A stretch of DNA of 64,000 nt from an uncultured Clostridia bacterium (GTDB lineage: Bacteria; Bacillota; Clostridia; Lachnospirales; CAG-274): positions 1 to 64,000 of the forward strand of contig CANRHR010000005.1 of the NCBI GenBank assembly GCA_947630475.1, given 5' to 3'. The position numbers were made by a program, and so were the translations under genes. The notes beneath the pieces are model-generated. The model was not told the DNA's origin. It was given only the letters and a program-made list of their open reading frames with translations, and did no database searches. Shown here one piece after another: positions 2,835 to 38,854 of the stretch (positions are counted from its first letter, which is position 1; each line of letters starts with the position of its first letter).

Positions 2835-3338
2835 TTATTTTTTTGTTAAATACATTTCTTCCAAAAGCCTTATTCCTTCTTTGGTTTTAAATATTTTTTC
2901 TTTTATGCTTAATATCGCTTCTTGGCTTAGCATATCTTCATAGATGTTAACAAGAAAATCAGCTTCAACCAAAATCTGATAATCAATACCGTTAATATTT
3001 TCGTATGTATGGTGATGAGCTATCAAATAGCATATTCTTTCGATGTCGGCTTTTTCATATCCGCTTTGTTCAAGCATAATTTTTGCAGGCTCAACGCCTT
3101 CACGCTGCTGATATATCCCATCGCTTGAGCCGTATTTTTTAACGGAGGGCTTTATGCCTATATCATGAACCAAAGCAGCGCTTTTTAAAATGAATTTTGT
3201 ATGCTCATCAAGCCCTTGAGCCTCTGCTATAAATTCTGCAAAGGCATAAACCTTTAAAAAATGCTGCACTCTTTTCGGAACAGATCTTTCATATTCAGTC
3301 ATTTTATTAAAAACAGTATTTATTTTGTCGCTGTACAT
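2835..3338 (-). CDS. HD-domain protein (predicted phosphohydrolase)
   Basis: The 167-residue protein carries the HD-superfamily metal-binding pattern: His26 (RVQHF), His58-Asp59 (LVHDIG), the His cluster 108-110 (AHHHTY) and Asp127 (VEADFL). HD proteins of this size usually hydrolyse phosphate esters of nucleotides or related small molecules, but the substrate cannot be read from the sequence. It is cytoplasmic, with no signal or membrane segment. It stands between an IS relic and a flagellar gene read in the same direction, with a hairpin in between, so it is probably transcribed separately. Confidence 0.8.
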   Translation of the reverse strand: MYSDKINTVFNKMTEYERSVPKRVQHFLKVYAFAEFIAEAQGLDEHTKFILKSAALVHDIGIKPSVKKYGSSDGIYQQREGVEPAKIMLEQSGYEKADIERICYLIAHHHTYENINGIDYQILVEADFLVNIYEDMLSQEAILSIKEKIFKTKEGIRLLEEMYLTKK

Positions 3339-3368
3339 TTTTTCTCCTTATACCTTACTATATTGTAA

Positions 3369-3409
3369 AACGGCACTTCGCAAAACAAAGATGTTTCCGA
3401 AATGCCGTT
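3369..3409 (-). terminator. Hairpin terminator of the FliD-like gene
   Basis: AACGGCA ... TGCCGTT arms, extended by a TTCG/CGAA pairing, lie five bases past the stop codon of the gene at 3415. The T-run in that direction is short, so efficiency is uncertain. Confidence 0.55.
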
Positions 3410-3414
3410 AATTT

Positions 3415-4719
3415 TTAGAATAATGCATCAAAAAGCGCGCTTGTTGTAATATAGTTAAAATAGGATTTTCTAAAGCTTGAAGAGCCCATAAGCTTGCTGT
3501 ATTCTGATGCATAAGAAGAATAATAAGATGAATCTGAAGAAACCATCTCTTCTTTTGCGGAAGCGCTTACAAATTTGGTCGGATCAGACTCAACCTGAGA
3601 TGCAATGCGATCAACACGATTTACAAAACCGTAATTTGCGCCGGCATCGTTTGTAAAGAACTTCTCAAGATCGCCGTTATCGGCAGCTTTTTTCATTTTA
3701 TCCTCATCAATTTTAAGGTAGCCGTTTTCATCCGTAGAGATTCCTATTCTTTCAAGAGAACTTGAATAAGCCGCAACAAGCCCGACAAGCTTGCTTTGAA
3801 GCTGAAGTGAACCTAAGTCATCATAATCCCTTGCAGTATCGTAAAGCTCGTTAAATCCGTTTACAAATGACCTTGCTGCATTTATTCCGCTTGTCTGATT
3901 CTTTGAATATGTTAATTTTGCAGGCTCATCGGTCACTTCTTTAAGGTTTAATGTAAGCTCGTCATCAATCTTTATTTTGTTTGTTGATGATGTTTGATCC
4001 TCGCCTGAGTTAATTGAATAAACAGCATCCTGCGCCTCTTGTGATACATTTGTAATACCCAGATCTTCCGCCAAAGCTCCGGAAACTGTAAAATCGTTGT
4101 CTTTTCCGCTTTCGCCCTTTAATACAAGGCGTGAATTTCCTTTTGAATCCTTTTCGATGCTTGCGGTTATACCCATCTTAGCGGAATTGATCTTGTCGGC
4201 AACTTTTTGCTGAACATCAAGATTGGAAAGGGAAGAGCCTGTTGAAACATAAAAATTCTTTTTTGTTCCATCGGCTGTTTTGATGCTGAATGATGTGCTT
4301 CTTACAGTGGAAGCATTTGAATTAAGCTTCTTTCCTTCATTAATCTGACTTTTAGCCAAAGATTTAACTTCAACTGTCATATCCTTCAGCTTGTCTTTTC
4401 CGGTATAATCAACACCTACAGCGTTAGAGCTGCTGTTATAGCTTATCTTGTTCCATATTGATTTGTCTTGGGCTGTTTTTATTGCAGACCTAAGACCGGA
4501 TGAAGCTTTTTTAATACCGACAAGATATGAGCTTAAGCTTGAGGATGTTTTTGAAGTATTAACCCCATAATAGCTGCCGTAATTAGATGATGAATAAATT
4601 GAAGAAAGCAGACTTTGAGTTGAAATACTGCTTTTAGATGATGTTCCGTAAAGTGATGACAATAAACTTGTAGTTGAATTGTAGCTTGAATTATAGCTAA
4701 AAATACCATTGGTTGACAT
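3415..4719 (-). CDS. FliD-like flagellar filament cap / hook-associated protein
   Basis: ATG 4719 is chosen because AGGAGGTGAT lies at the right distance; an in-frame GTG nine bases upstream is part of that ribosome binding site. The 434-residue product has a long Ser/Tyr-rich N-terminus (about 1-60), then a region matching FliD proteins: SLAKSQINEG, ADKINSAKMGITASI and the C-terminal RSFVNGFNELYDTARDYDDLG and GISTDENGYLKIDEDKMKKA. FliD caps the growing flagellar filament. The N-terminus is unlike the usual short FliD start, and the protein may be a FliD paralogue acting as a hook-filament or cap protein. A perfect sigma-28-type promoter lies upstream, in line with late flagellar expression. 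Confidence 0.75.
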   Translation of the reverse strand: MSTNGIFSYNSSYNSTTSLLSSLYGTSSKSSISTQSLLSSIYSSSNYGSYYGVNTSKTSSSLSSYLVGIKKASSGLRSAIKTAQDKSIWNKISYNSSSNAVGVDYTGKDKLKDMTVEVKSLAKSQINEGKKLNSNASTVRSTSFSIKTADGTKKNFYVSTGSSLSNLDVQQKVADKINSAKMGITASIEKDSKGNSRLVLKGESGKDNDFTVSGALAEDLGITNVSQEAQDAVYSINSGEDQTSSTNKIKIDDELTLNLKEVTDEPAKLTYSKNQTSGINAARSFVNGFNELYDTARDYDDLGSLQLQSKLVGLVAAYSSSLERIGISTDENGYLKIDEDKMKKAADNGDLEKFFTNDAGANYGFVNRVDRIASQVESDPTKFVSASAKEEMVSSDSSYYSSYASEYSKLMGSSSFRKSYFNYITTSALFDALF

Positions 4720-4759
4720 AATAATCACCTCCTAAATAAAGTCATACCTTACACTTAAT

Positions 4760-4786
4760 ATATCGGCATAAAAAAGGTTTTTTTTA
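4760..4786 (-). promoter_or_regulatory. Sigma-28 (SigD/FliA-type) promoter
   Basis: On the minus strand the sequence is TAAA, 15 bases, GCCGATAT, an exact match to the Bacillus SigD consensus. It lies about 40 bases before the FliD-like start. The 46-base neighbourhood is closely similar to the promoter inside the putative invertible segment at 36885-36929. Confidence 0.85.
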
Positions 4787-4886
4787 ACGCCTGCCTGTAA
4801 ATAAATTTTTAAGACTGCATTTTAACAAATTACAACTTATAGGCATATAGTATAATAAATTTTAAATTTATAGGAGAATAAACATT

Positions 4887-36806: not shown

Positions 36807-36834
36807 AAAGCCATAGATTTTTCGATGGCTTTAT
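36807..36834 (-). terminator. 9-bp hairpin left of the invertible segment
   Basis: TAAAGCCAT / ATGGCTTTA is a perfect stem with a 10-base loop. It lies just outside the left inverted repeat and could stop leftward transcripts leaving the segment (the recombinase gene or the sigma-28-like promoter at 36898). It has no clear T-run. The rest of the gap 36661-36849 is AT-rich with nothing else visible. Confidence 0.4.
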
Positions 36835-36849
36835 AATAAAAAATAAAAA

Positions 36850-36880
36850 AAATGTAACAATTTATAATAAATGTTACATT
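36850..36880 (-). repeat. Left 31-bp inverted repeat of the putative invertible segment
   Basis: The 31 bases are the exact reverse complement of 37587-37617. Each copy is itself an imperfect palindrome with 9-bp arms AATGTAACA and TGTTACATT around a 12-base centre; the centres are inverted relative to each other (ATTTATAATAAA here, TTTATTATAAAT at the right). Two core arms around an asymmetric centre is the usual form of a tyrosine-recombinase site. The inverted relation predicts inversion rather than excision. Confidence 0.88.
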
Positions 36881-36897
36881 TTTGCCTTACACTTATT

Positions 36898-36923
36898 ATA
36901 TCGTCATTATCGAAAAAAACTTA
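36898..36923 (-). promoter_or_regulatory. Sigma-28-like promoter inside the invertible segment, pointing outward to the left
   Basis: On the minus strand TAAG, 14 bases, GACGATAT: seven of eight bases of the -10 box, three of four of the -35 box and one base short in spacing against the SigD consensus. The surrounding 45 bases (36885-36929) closely match the 46 bases around the perfect sigma-28 promoter of the FliD-like gene, sharing CCTTACACTTA, TATATCG and TAACGCCT in the same places. In the present orientation it reads away from csrA-flagellin. After inversion it would read into csrA with a leader of about 100 bases. Confidence 0.65.
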
Positions 36924-36990
36924 ACGCCTATTTTAAAAAATTTTAAAAAATTTTTTTATTTTTTGCATACAAATAAAGCATAGCCAAACA

Positions 36991-37566
36991 CTACAAATTA
37001 AGCGACATAAAAACCTTATCCTTTTCATCTTGGTCTATGCCTAAATATCGTCTTGTTACGGCATACGACGAATGATTGAAAAGCTCCATAATAACGGCAG
37101 GCGCAACGCCCTTTTTAAAGGCGTTGTAGCCAAATGTTTTCCTCAAGGAATGACAGGCTATGTTTCCCTGTATCTTTAAAAGCTTTGCCGCCTGCTTTAA
37201 AATTCTGTACATCTGTATTCTGCTTATCGCTTTGTTTTTTCCTTTCTGGCTTTTAAACAAAACCCCATCTTTTTGTATTTTTCCGTAATAGGCTTTAAGC
37301 TTTTTTAGGCAGTCTATAACAGCCTTATTCATCTTTATTTTAATAATTTTTTTTGTTTTCTTTTCAACAATGTGAATGTAGGCTTTAAATTTTTTTGTAT
37401 CAAATTCATACACATCTTCCCATCTCAGCTCCAATATATCGCTGCATCTTAATCCCGTGTTTACGCTTATTACAATCAGCGCAAGGTCACGCATATTGCC
37501 TTTTTTCTCAAAATAAAGCTTAAGTCTGTTCAAATCTTTTTTACTCTTTATAGGGTCTGTTTTCAT
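36991..37566 (-). CDS. Small tyrosine recombinase, FimB/FimE-like size (putative DNA invertase)
   Basis: ATG 37566 is chosen because AAGGAGG lies nine bases before it. The 191-residue protein is almost only the catalytic domain of the phage-integrase family, as in the Fim-type invertases. All expected residues are present: Arg40 (TGLRCSDIL), a lysine in the VEKKTKK hairpin near 69-73, His139-x-x-Arg142 (HSLRKTF), His165 (NHSS) and the nucleophile Tyr174 (TRRYLGI). The gene is the only one between two perfect 31-bp inverted repeats, with its start 21 bases inside the right one. It most likely flips the segment that contains it. No other phage gene is nearby. Its promoter must lie in or beyond the right repeat. 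Confidence 0.9.
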   Translation of the reverse strand: MKTDPIKSKKDLNRLKLYFEKKGNMRDLALIVISVNTGLRCSDILELRWEDVYEFDTKKFKAYIHIVEKKTKKIIKIKMNKAVIDCLKKLKAYYGKIQKDGVLFKSQKGKNKAISRIQMYRILKQAAKLLKIQGNIACHSLRKTFGYNAFKKGVAPAVIMELFNHSSYAVTRRYLGIDQDEKDKVFMSLNL

Positions 37567-37586
37567 TATTAAGTTCCTCCTTGAAT

Positions 37587-37617
37587 AATGTAACATTTAT
37601 TATAAATTGTTACATTT
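37587..37617 (+). repeat. Right 31-bp inverted repeat of the putative invertible segment
   Basis: The sequence begins AATGTAACATTTATTATAA and ends TTGTTACATTT, and matches the reverse complement of 36850-36880 at all 31 positions. It lies between the recombinase start and csrA, 59 bases before the csrA ATG. Confidence 0.88.
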
Positions 37618-37676
37618 GTACGCTCCTACCATATTATCATCTTATATTTTAAACAATTTTTCAAGGAGGAATTTTT

Positions 37677-37934
37677 ATGCTTACGCTGACAGTCAAGGAA
37701 GGAGAATATATAAAGATAGGTGATGATATTTTTGTTAAGTATACAAGCAACTTAAGGTCCGACAGTATAAGGCTATCCATAGACGTGCCTAAAGAAGTAC
37801 CCGTAGTACGCTCTAAGGTGTATGAAAAAAATCTTGAACTAATGGCGGAAAACGATTCTGCTGCCGCCGAGGAGCTTAAAAGGGTAAGAAAAATGAAGGG
37901 CAAATACAAAAAGCCTAAGATTAAAAATATTTAA
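37677..37934 (+). CDS. csrA: CsrA family translational regulator
   Basis: The 85-residue protein begins MLTLTVKEGEYIKIGDDIFV and continues with SIRLSIDVPKEVPVVRSKVY, which matches CsrA: LILTRK-type first strand, IGDDI turn, and the PKEVxVxR RNA-binding stretch. The C-terminal 25-30 residues form a longer than usual basic tail (MKGKYKKPKIK). CsrA dimers bind GGA motifs in hairpin loops and block translation; in Bacillus the flagellin mRNA is the main target and FliW is the antagonist. The flagellin gene follows 95 bases later with matching leader sites. fliW is not in this window. AAGGAGGA precedes the ATG. Confidence 0.92.
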   Translation: MLTLTVKEGEYIKIGDDIFVKYTSNLRSDSIRLSIDVPKEVPVVRSKVYEKNLELMAENDSAAAEELKRVRKMKGKYKKPKIKNI

Positions 37935-37948
37935 TTAAGTTAATATCC

Positions 37949-37976
37949 TTGGCAAAAGCTAGGGTTATTATATAAA
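37949..37976 (+). promoter_or_regulatory. Possible sigma-A promoter for flagellin
   Basis: TTGGCA, 16 bases, TATAAA. Start of transcription near 37983 would put the leader hairpin at the very 5' end of the mRNA. If this promoter is real, flagellin can be transcribed independently of the switch upstream. No sigma-28 consensus is visible here. Confidence 0.5.
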
Positions 37977-37984
37977 AACAAAAA

Positions 37985-38023
37985 ACGCAAACGGATTTGC
38001 GTAAAATTTAATCAACGGAGGGA
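37985..38023 (+). promoter_or_regulatory. Predicted CsrA-binding leader of flagellin mRNA
   Basis: ACGCAAA-CGGA-TTTGCGT (37985-38002) is a perfect 7-bp stem whose loop holds GGA. The Shine-Dalgarno sequence ACGGAGGGA (38015-38023) repeats the same ACGGA. Two GGA sites, one in a hairpin loop and one on the ribosome binding site, are the known arrangement by which CsrA represses hag in Bacillus. Confidence 0.65.
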
Positions 38024-38029
38024 TTTATT

Positions 38030-38854
38030 ATGAGTAGTTCAACAGTAATTAACACAAACGCAAGGGCTTTAAATTCAAACAGAAACTTAAGGGCAGTAGG
38101 AAACAAGCAGGATAAGGCAAGCAAGAGATTATCAAGCGGCAAGAAAATCAATTCTGCGGCTGATGATGCAGCAGGCTTGGCTATCAGCGAAAAAATGAAG
38201 GCTCAAATCAGAGGTCTTGATATGGCTTCCAAAAATGCAAATGATGCTATATCATTTATCCAAACAACTGAAGGTTATGTTGCCGAGATTAACAATATGG
38301 TTACAAGAATCAGAGATCTTGCCGTTCAGTGTTCTACAGACAGTAACGAATCAGCAGACAGAACCAAAAGTCAGCAAGAGGTTGAGCAGCTTAGAACTGA
38401 AATTACAGATTTGGCAGGCAGAGCTCAGTTTAACAACATTAATCTTAATCAAAAGGATGTAGAGTTTGATTTCCATATCGGTTCAAACAAAGGTCAGAAA
38501 ATTTCATTAAAACTTCAGCAATTTGATGCCACAGAATTAGGTTTGAATGCTGCTTCAGTATCTGGCGATGGAAGTGAGGCTGATACTCTTATCAAAACCT
38601 GTGATGATGCTCTTGAAAAAGTAACAAGCTACAGAGCTATACTCGGCGCTGTTCAAAACAGGCTTGAATACACAAACAGCGCTCTTGAAACAGCAAGCGA
38701 GAACTTAAGCCAAGCAAACTCAAGAATTGAAGATGCCGATATGGCTCAAGAAATGACTAACATGACTTCAGCTAACGTTATTAATCAGGCTGCCGTTGCT
38801 ATGCTTGCTCAGGCAAATCAGGCTCCACAGACTGTGCTTCAGCTCTTGAGCTGA
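38030..38854 (+). CDS. hag: Flagellin
   Basis: The 274-residue protein has the conserved flagellin ends: INTNARALNSNRNLRAVGNK and SKRLSSGKKINSAADDAAGL at the N-terminus, and ALETASENLSQANSRIEDAD, MTSANVINQAAVAMLAQANQ and QTVLQLLS at the C-terminus. It is short, so only the D0/D1 core and a very small variable part (about 145-195) are present. The stretch VTRIRDLAVQ resembles the TLR5-recognised site of enterobacterial flagellins (inference). It lies directly behind csrA, starts behind ACGGAGGGA, and ends in a strong terminator. Confidence 0.97.
   Translation: MSSSTVINTNARALNSNRNLRAVGNKQDKASKRLSSGKKINSAADDAAGLAISEKMKAQIRGLDMASKNANDAISFIQTTEGYVAEINNMVTRIRDLAVQCSTDSNESADRTKSQQEVEQLRTEITDLAGRAQFNNINLNQKDVEFDFHIGSNKGQKISLKLQQFDATELGLNAASVSGDGSEADTLIKTCDDALEKVTSYRAILGAVQNRLEYTNSALETASENLSQANSRIEDADMAQEMTNMTSANVINQAAVAMLAQANQAPQTVLQLLS

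Follow-up and report, generated by a model that had tools for sequence, protein, structure and literature searches.

The literature on the Salmonella hin/fljBA system describes an invertible segment (the H segment) that carries both a promoter and a recombinase gene, with the flagellin operon turned on in one of its two orientations and flagellin co-transcribed with a regulator (PMC3535392, PMC9368917). Both features have counterparts in the locus analyzed here, which lies in a window comprising a 64,000-nucleotide stretch of DNA from an uncultured Clostridia bacterium: a promoter and a recombinase gene are located within a putative invertible segment, and the flagellin gene is predicted to be co-transcribed with a candidate flagellin regulator, a csrA-like gene. 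The differences from the Salmonella system involve most of its components. The recombinase is a serine recombinase (Hin) in Salmonella and a tyrosine recombinase here, fljA follows the flagellin gene whereas csrA precedes it, the recombination sites differ, and the single Salmonella switch contrasts with at least four complete switches here. No co-transcribed FljA repressor was found in the window, where the neighbor of flagellin is the csrA-like gene, and that this gene might act as a functional stand-in for FljA is our conjecture. Given the difference in enzyme class and the absence of fljA, the switch in the window is not a member of the hin/fljBA system.

A second point of comparison is the flg switch of Clostridioides difficile (Cdi4/RecV), which likewise combines a tyrosine recombinase, a Firmicutes host, flagellar phase variation and short inverted repeats (PMC5386303). 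Cdi4 is a promoterless element in the 5' leader of the early flgB operon that acts after transcription initiation, and RecV works in trans on several switches (PMC5386303). Here, the recombinase gene lies inside the segment and, unlike in Cdi4, the predicted inversion involves a sigma-28-like promoter located before single csrA-flagellin units. Tyrosine invertases of the FimB/FimE type, which span approximately 190-200 amino acids, consist of only the catalytic domain and act on invertible promoters, resemble the recombinase described here in size, domain content and association with an invertible promoter, but differ from it in that the recombinase gene is here inside the segment and the target is flagellin. 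The pair of inverted palindromic sites with an asymmetric spacer that characterizes tyrosine-recombinase invertons is also present. No report of these flagellin invertons was found in the literature searched, a set largely without subscription papers or the main 2019 invertible-promoter paper, and neither PMC11892184 nor PMC10939037 yielded matches to flagellar terms.

Organization of the flagellin-associated segment

An earlier note on this DNA had proposed that a block at 36885-36929, beside the left repeat and reading leftward, away from flagellin, is an invertible promoter. The place and direction of the block were confirmed in the sequence, and the analysis supports the proposed interpretation and extends it, with the block belonging to a set of six copies, of which four are complete and two partial, that have relatives in 13 other genomes. 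In our assessment, the block is very likely a promoter that inverts as part of a self-contained ON/OFF switch for flagellin. Support for this reading stems from three tests that it could have failed, namely the orientation of the paralogues, with an ON paralogue inverted at the repeat, the recurrence of the promoter beside csrA, and a fixed flagellin gene on contig C10 with the same promoter. The anatomy of the segment, its copies, the existence of both orientations among paralogues, the conservation of its elements and an intact FliA gene are all read directly from the sequence.

In the window, the 762-bp segment consists of palindromic inverted repeats at both ends, a sigma-28-like promoter and a tyrosine recombinase gene. 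The left (distal) recombination site (36853-36878) is a TGTAACA-N12-TGTTACA palindrome within an inverted-repeat arm spanning positions 36850-36883, and it continues outward into TTTTTTTTATTT. Its inverted mate, the right (proximal) site (37589-37614), lies within the arm at 37584-37617, and the two arms show perfect complementarity across 31 bases. The promoter (36897-36925, minus strand) sits between the stop codon of the recombinase gene and the left arm, with a TTAAG -35 element (36924-36920) and an ACGATAT -10 element (36904-36898), and points away from csrA in the OFF orientation. The recombinase gene (36991-37566, minus strand) encodes a protein of 191 amino acids, and beyond the proximal site lie the csrA-like gene (37677-37934, plus strand) and a gene encoding a 274-amino acid flagellin (38030-38854, plus strand). 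Inversion had been predicted to bring the promoter about 100 bases ahead of csrA, reading into csrA and flagellin; as computed on the window, it would place the end of the -10 element 106 bp ahead of the csrA ATG, making the csrA-like gene the first in its path. A hairpin (AAAGCCAT...ATGGCTTT, 36810-36834) is located directly outside the distal site; it is common to the C6 copy and appears in altered form in C13.

The recombinase matched PF00589 (Phage_integrase) alone among Pfam families (E 1.8e-26). Residues R40, K70, H139, R142, H165 and Y174, which we take to be the catalytic residues of tyrosine recombinases, were invariant in the eight sequences compared, reproducing the R-K-H-R-H-Y signature. 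The NCBIfam FimB/FimE-type models NF007371 and NF007370 returned weak matches (45.1 and 35.4 bits, versus cut-offs of 222 and 221), and assignment to these families was rejected. The recombinase gene begins approximately 20 bases inward of the proximal site, and the DNA upstream of it therefore changes with orientation; visual inspection identified no conserved element near this start that could represent a promoter for the recombinase itself.

Five CsrA genes were detected in the genome, four of them at cassettes, together with eight Flagellin_N matches, four of which are at complete cassettes. The six flagellins compared (from the four cassettes, C25 and C10) share 61-84% identity, with conserved ends and a divergent middle region. 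The flagellin leader in the window contains a hairpin with a CGGA loop (37985-38002, plus strand), and hairpins with CGGA or TGGA loops are also present in the L007, L008 and L009 leaders. Both sides of the stem enclosing the GGA loop differ between cassettes (CGCAAA/TTTGCG versus CCACAAA/TTTGTGG), and the hairpin is a candidate CsrA site. A similar element was seen by eye in the leader of the fixed C10 flagellin gene. A candidate sigma-A promoter for flagellin had also been put forward at 37949-37976. This assignment is not favored, as the candidate is absent from the promoter-like matches of our scan and overlaps a hairpin (37947-37964), its supposed -35 element falling on a structure that other cassettes retain with an altered sequence. 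Other promoters might possibly read through into csrA, such as a weak promoter-like GTTACA-N17-TATTAT element at 37609-37637.

The promoter motif

Read on the minus strand, the block (AGGCGTTAAGTTTTTTTCGATAATGACGATATAATAAGTGTAAGG) presents GTTAAG followed, after 14 bases, by GACGATATA (36925-36897). The pattern GTTAAG-N13..15-GACGATATA has a single match in the window and none in 100 dinucleotide shuffles, figures that are descriptive only, since the motif was derived from this same sequence. The earlier note had described the block as nearly repeating the 46 bases that contain the perfect sigma-28 box (4760-4786, minus strand) upstream of the FliD-like gene (3415-4728). That description is too strong, with gaps being needed in the -35 half, but 21 of 23 bases encompassing the -10 box and the start region are alike without gaps, and the FliD-gene promoter is the best local match to the block in the window (score 23.5, with the next distinct match at 17.5). 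Likewise, the reported one-base deficit in spacing and the two differing box positions depend on how TAAG is read: when the block is aligned with related copies, the -35 element reads T(A/T)AAG and the spacing is unchanged.

The sigma-28 consensus of Butyrivibrio fibrisolvens has been given as TAAA-N16..17-MCGATAa, where M permits the A of ACGATAT, and the promoter of a Roseburia inulinivorans flagellin has been assigned as taag / acgatat (PMC3720852). These assignments make the promoter form observed here credible for this group. The block fits the sigma-28 pattern of a TAAA-like -35 element and an (M)CGATAT -10 element about 15-17 bp apart, and the host genome encodes one FliA (C3:128487), scoring 269.9 bits against a curated cut-off of 189.6.

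Across the 2.18 Mb genome, GTTAAG-N10..16-GACGATATA was located at seven places, versus none in the reversed control; the pattern had been derived from four of these places, all cassettes. The remaining three correspond to a partial cassette at the start of C23, to the fixed flagellin gene on C10, which carries the matching promoter in its promoter region and has no inverton, and to an acyltransferase-like gene on C3. The latter instance (C3:177973-178001, L018) lies upstream of a gene that was named by eye and that could be a filament-modifying gene with the sigma factor in common. The generic consensus TAAA-N14..16-GCCGATAT was not enriched genome-wide (7 instances, versus 7 in the reversed control) and was not used as evidence. 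The sigma-28 identity of the promoter hence rests on conservation and context.

Copies and relatives of the proposed switch

Three near relatives of the window recombinase (100, 81 and 66% identity) were identified in the genome, each in a similar segment with csrA-like and flagellin genes as neighbors, and the recombinase copies of this genome (G000) form one clade in the tree. The genome contains four complete copies of the switch, each adjoining csrA and a different flagellin gene, and contig C23 has a further, partial copy at either end. The complete copies in the window, C6 and C13 are OFF and the copy at C5:113811 is ON, both orientations thus being present among paralogues. The existence of a paralogue with its promoter reading into csrA-flagellin bears out the earlier suggestion that the assembled orientation of the window is the OFF state. 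BLAST comparison of the left end of C23 (an OFF partial copy) with the ON copy aligned bases 1-270 on the plus strand (96.7% identity) and bases 238-446 on the minus strand (92.3%), and the overlap between these two opposite-strand pieces is the repeat. Since the pieces join at the repeat, the C23 left-end and C5:113811 loci differ by an inversion at the sites. The OFF calls for the C23 copies are based on flank homology, their flagellin genes being absent from the contig; C25, which terminates in a flagellin leader, is a possible partner for one of the two. The second partial cassette, at the right end of C23, faces the one at the left end, and genes recognized by eye as rpoB and rpoC lie between the two (L185; 1-446 and 18816-19037). 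Because the distal flanks of both ends are alike, a homologous inversion of the intervening 19 kb is conceivable.

The palindrome TGTAACA-N10..14-TGTTACA was found at ten places in the genome, all at cassettes (eight at the four complete ones and two at the C23 ends), and the reversed-pattern control returned one match per strand across the whole genome. The window and C6 segments are identical at 756 of 762 positions, with their recombinase genes differing by two silent changes only, and an alignment of their 500-bp distal flanks shows identity in only 292 of its 545 columns. In the C6 cassette (L007; 136564-136589 and 137300-137325), two spacer positions differ between the sites; pairing of these positions within each arm is predicted only for the ON state, a hint of inversion in this cassette after the changes had arisen.

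Searches of 61 genomes, of genome contigs and of 392 genomes of the order revealed related recombinases in many different contexts. From the 61-genome search, 40 of 43 strong matches were retrieved; for the 392-genome search, L109-L136 were scanned and 20 places were viewed more widely, among the matches listed. These searches identified 11 further complete csrA-adjacent cassettes with the recombinase inside (L025, L026, L031, L032, L137, L138, L139, L141, L142, L145 and L146), with flagellin as the next gene in nine of them and the contig stopping after csrA in L137 and L138. In three more csrA-adjacent invertons (L076, L147 and L140) the recombinase is outside. The promoter is directed away from csrA in all 14 complete invertons from the 13 other genomes, which are hence OFF in the assembly, the calls for L140, L076 and L147 having been read directly from sequence. 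The complete invertons thus number 18, spread over 14 genomes, with 17 OFF and one ON, suggesting that switching to ON may be rare.

Several loci depart from the common layout. L076 (about 4629-4807) and L147 (5739-5929) are small invertons of ~150-190 bp whose sole content is the sigma-28-like promoter; in both, the recombinase gene directly flanks the inverton. The invertible segment of L140 (G378, about 2960-4846) holds an insert that resembles a group II intron by eye and separates the promoter from the distal site. In G258 (L143, about 3949-4022) and G322 (L144, 6687-6758), a similar promoter is directed across one palindrome, toward flagellin in the former and toward the contig end in the latter; a second palindrome was not found at either locus, and these forms are perhaps locked ON. 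In Lachnospiraceae bacterium A4 (L038), a recombinase remnant was found near a contig end, with no promoter or paired sites detected by eye.

Of the 15 distal blocks, 14 carry the motif TAA[AG]-N13..17-[ACG]CGATA on the strand of the recombinase gene, compared with 0.1 expected from shuffles, and none has it on the opposite strand; L146 was counted as promoter-positive by eye (CCGATAT -10 element, poor -35) and not by this motif. The 400 bp that follow the recombinase contained the motif in 7 of the 8 loci adjacent to flagellin, L076 with its small promoter-only layout being the exception, versus 1 of 48 other loci. These counts are not independent, because the sequences are related, yet the divergence of the recombinases limits this concern: those of the named genomes are 41-51% identical to that of the window, and the later flagellin-adjacent ones are at most 61% identical to any earlier one, apart from G058, which was already in the earlier set. 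A single origin for the flagellin-associated recombinases was not supported by the tree (four label changes, with two as the least forced and a shuffled mean of 8.5). Related recombinases in other families adjoin small inverted-repeat pairs (L149 5669-5830, L150, L153, L155 and L156), several of them with similar half-sites and none with flagellin, and recombinases of this kind seem to act on many invertons.

Proposed switching and alternative explanations

From these features we infer the pairing of the recombinase with the sites, inversion in cells, the use of sigma-28 and transcription termination. In the proposed mechanism, the small tyrosine recombinase that the segment encodes would recombine the two inverted palindromic sites (ATGTAACA half-sites), flipping the 762-bp segment. 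In the OFF orientation, the sigma-28 promoter located past the recombinase 3' end would fire outward, and its transcript would be halted at once by the distal site and its T-run. In the ON orientation, the promoter would lie ahead of csrA and transcribe csrA and flagellin, with the proximal site and its weaker T-run letting transcription through. With four complete and two partial switches, the genome could vary the flagellin that is made.

The combination of repeat and T-run in the OFF direction resembles an intrinsic terminator, and the site may hence terminate transcription in the OFF state. Past the site, the OFF direction has the larger T-run in 13 of 14 cassettes, and the two directions are tied in L031 (Wilcoxon p 0.0014, or p 0.002 with a single row for G000), a test run without L025 and L142, in which one site was not cleanly detected, and without the small-layout L076 and L147. 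The distal T-run exceeds its own flank background (p 0.0001), and the proximal one does not clearly do so (p 0.08). Hairpin stability does not favor the OFF direction in L031 and C13.

The fact that most copies are OFF in the assembly, and that locked forms appear to exist, as illustrated by the single-palindrome promoters of G258 and G322, could also be explained by a fossil element, with recombinase and repeats being inactive and orientations differing only through old rearrangements. This explanation is very unlikely in view of the invariant catalytic residues of the eight sequences, the perfectly complementary 31-base arms of the window, the restriction of changes between the window and C6 recombinase genes to silent ones, and a join between the ON paralogue and the OFF copy that falls exactly at the repeat. 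It is less probable still that the promoter serves the OFF state, generating an outward or antisense transcript into the neighboring chromosome and not acting on flagellin. Its outward direction in 17 of the 18 complete invertons as assembled would fit this role, but the outward neighbors vary, as seen in the divergent window and C6 flanks, a terminator-like site lies directly in its path, and csrA-flagellin is the constant neighbor.

The orientation-dependent DNA upstream of the recombinase could, in addition, indicate that flipping mainly changes expression of the recombinase, in a feedback loop, with flagellin being transcribed from its own sigma-A promoter. We find this scarcely credible, since the distal promoter is downstream of the recombinase and cannot serve it, and the hairpin overlapping the supposed sigma-A -35 element is kept with changed sequence in other cassettes. 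Returning to the block as the invertible promoter of a flagellin switch, a broader scenario can be outlined, which we deem possible but rather unlikely: the genome would hold up to six independent recombinase-bearing switches, each for its own csrA-flagellin pair, and CsrA from the ON unit would repress other flagellin mRNAs via their GGA hairpins, resulting in one-at-a-time expression. Such a system would parallel Salmonella fljBA-FljA by convergence, with a tyrosine recombinase and a recombination site that doubles as OFF terminator.

The recombinase, the 26-bp sites and the promoter are small enough for tests in E. coli and Bacillus subtilis. If the proposed switch is real, an order-wide comparison of switch states from metagenome reads becomes feasible, and draft genomes and bulk RNA data would misstate the flagellin made, since assemblies mostly show the OFF state. 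Flagellin is a major immune target, and the proposed switch would mean that motile, gut-type Lachnospirales-like bacteria vary it by a mechanism that evolved separately from that of Salmonella.
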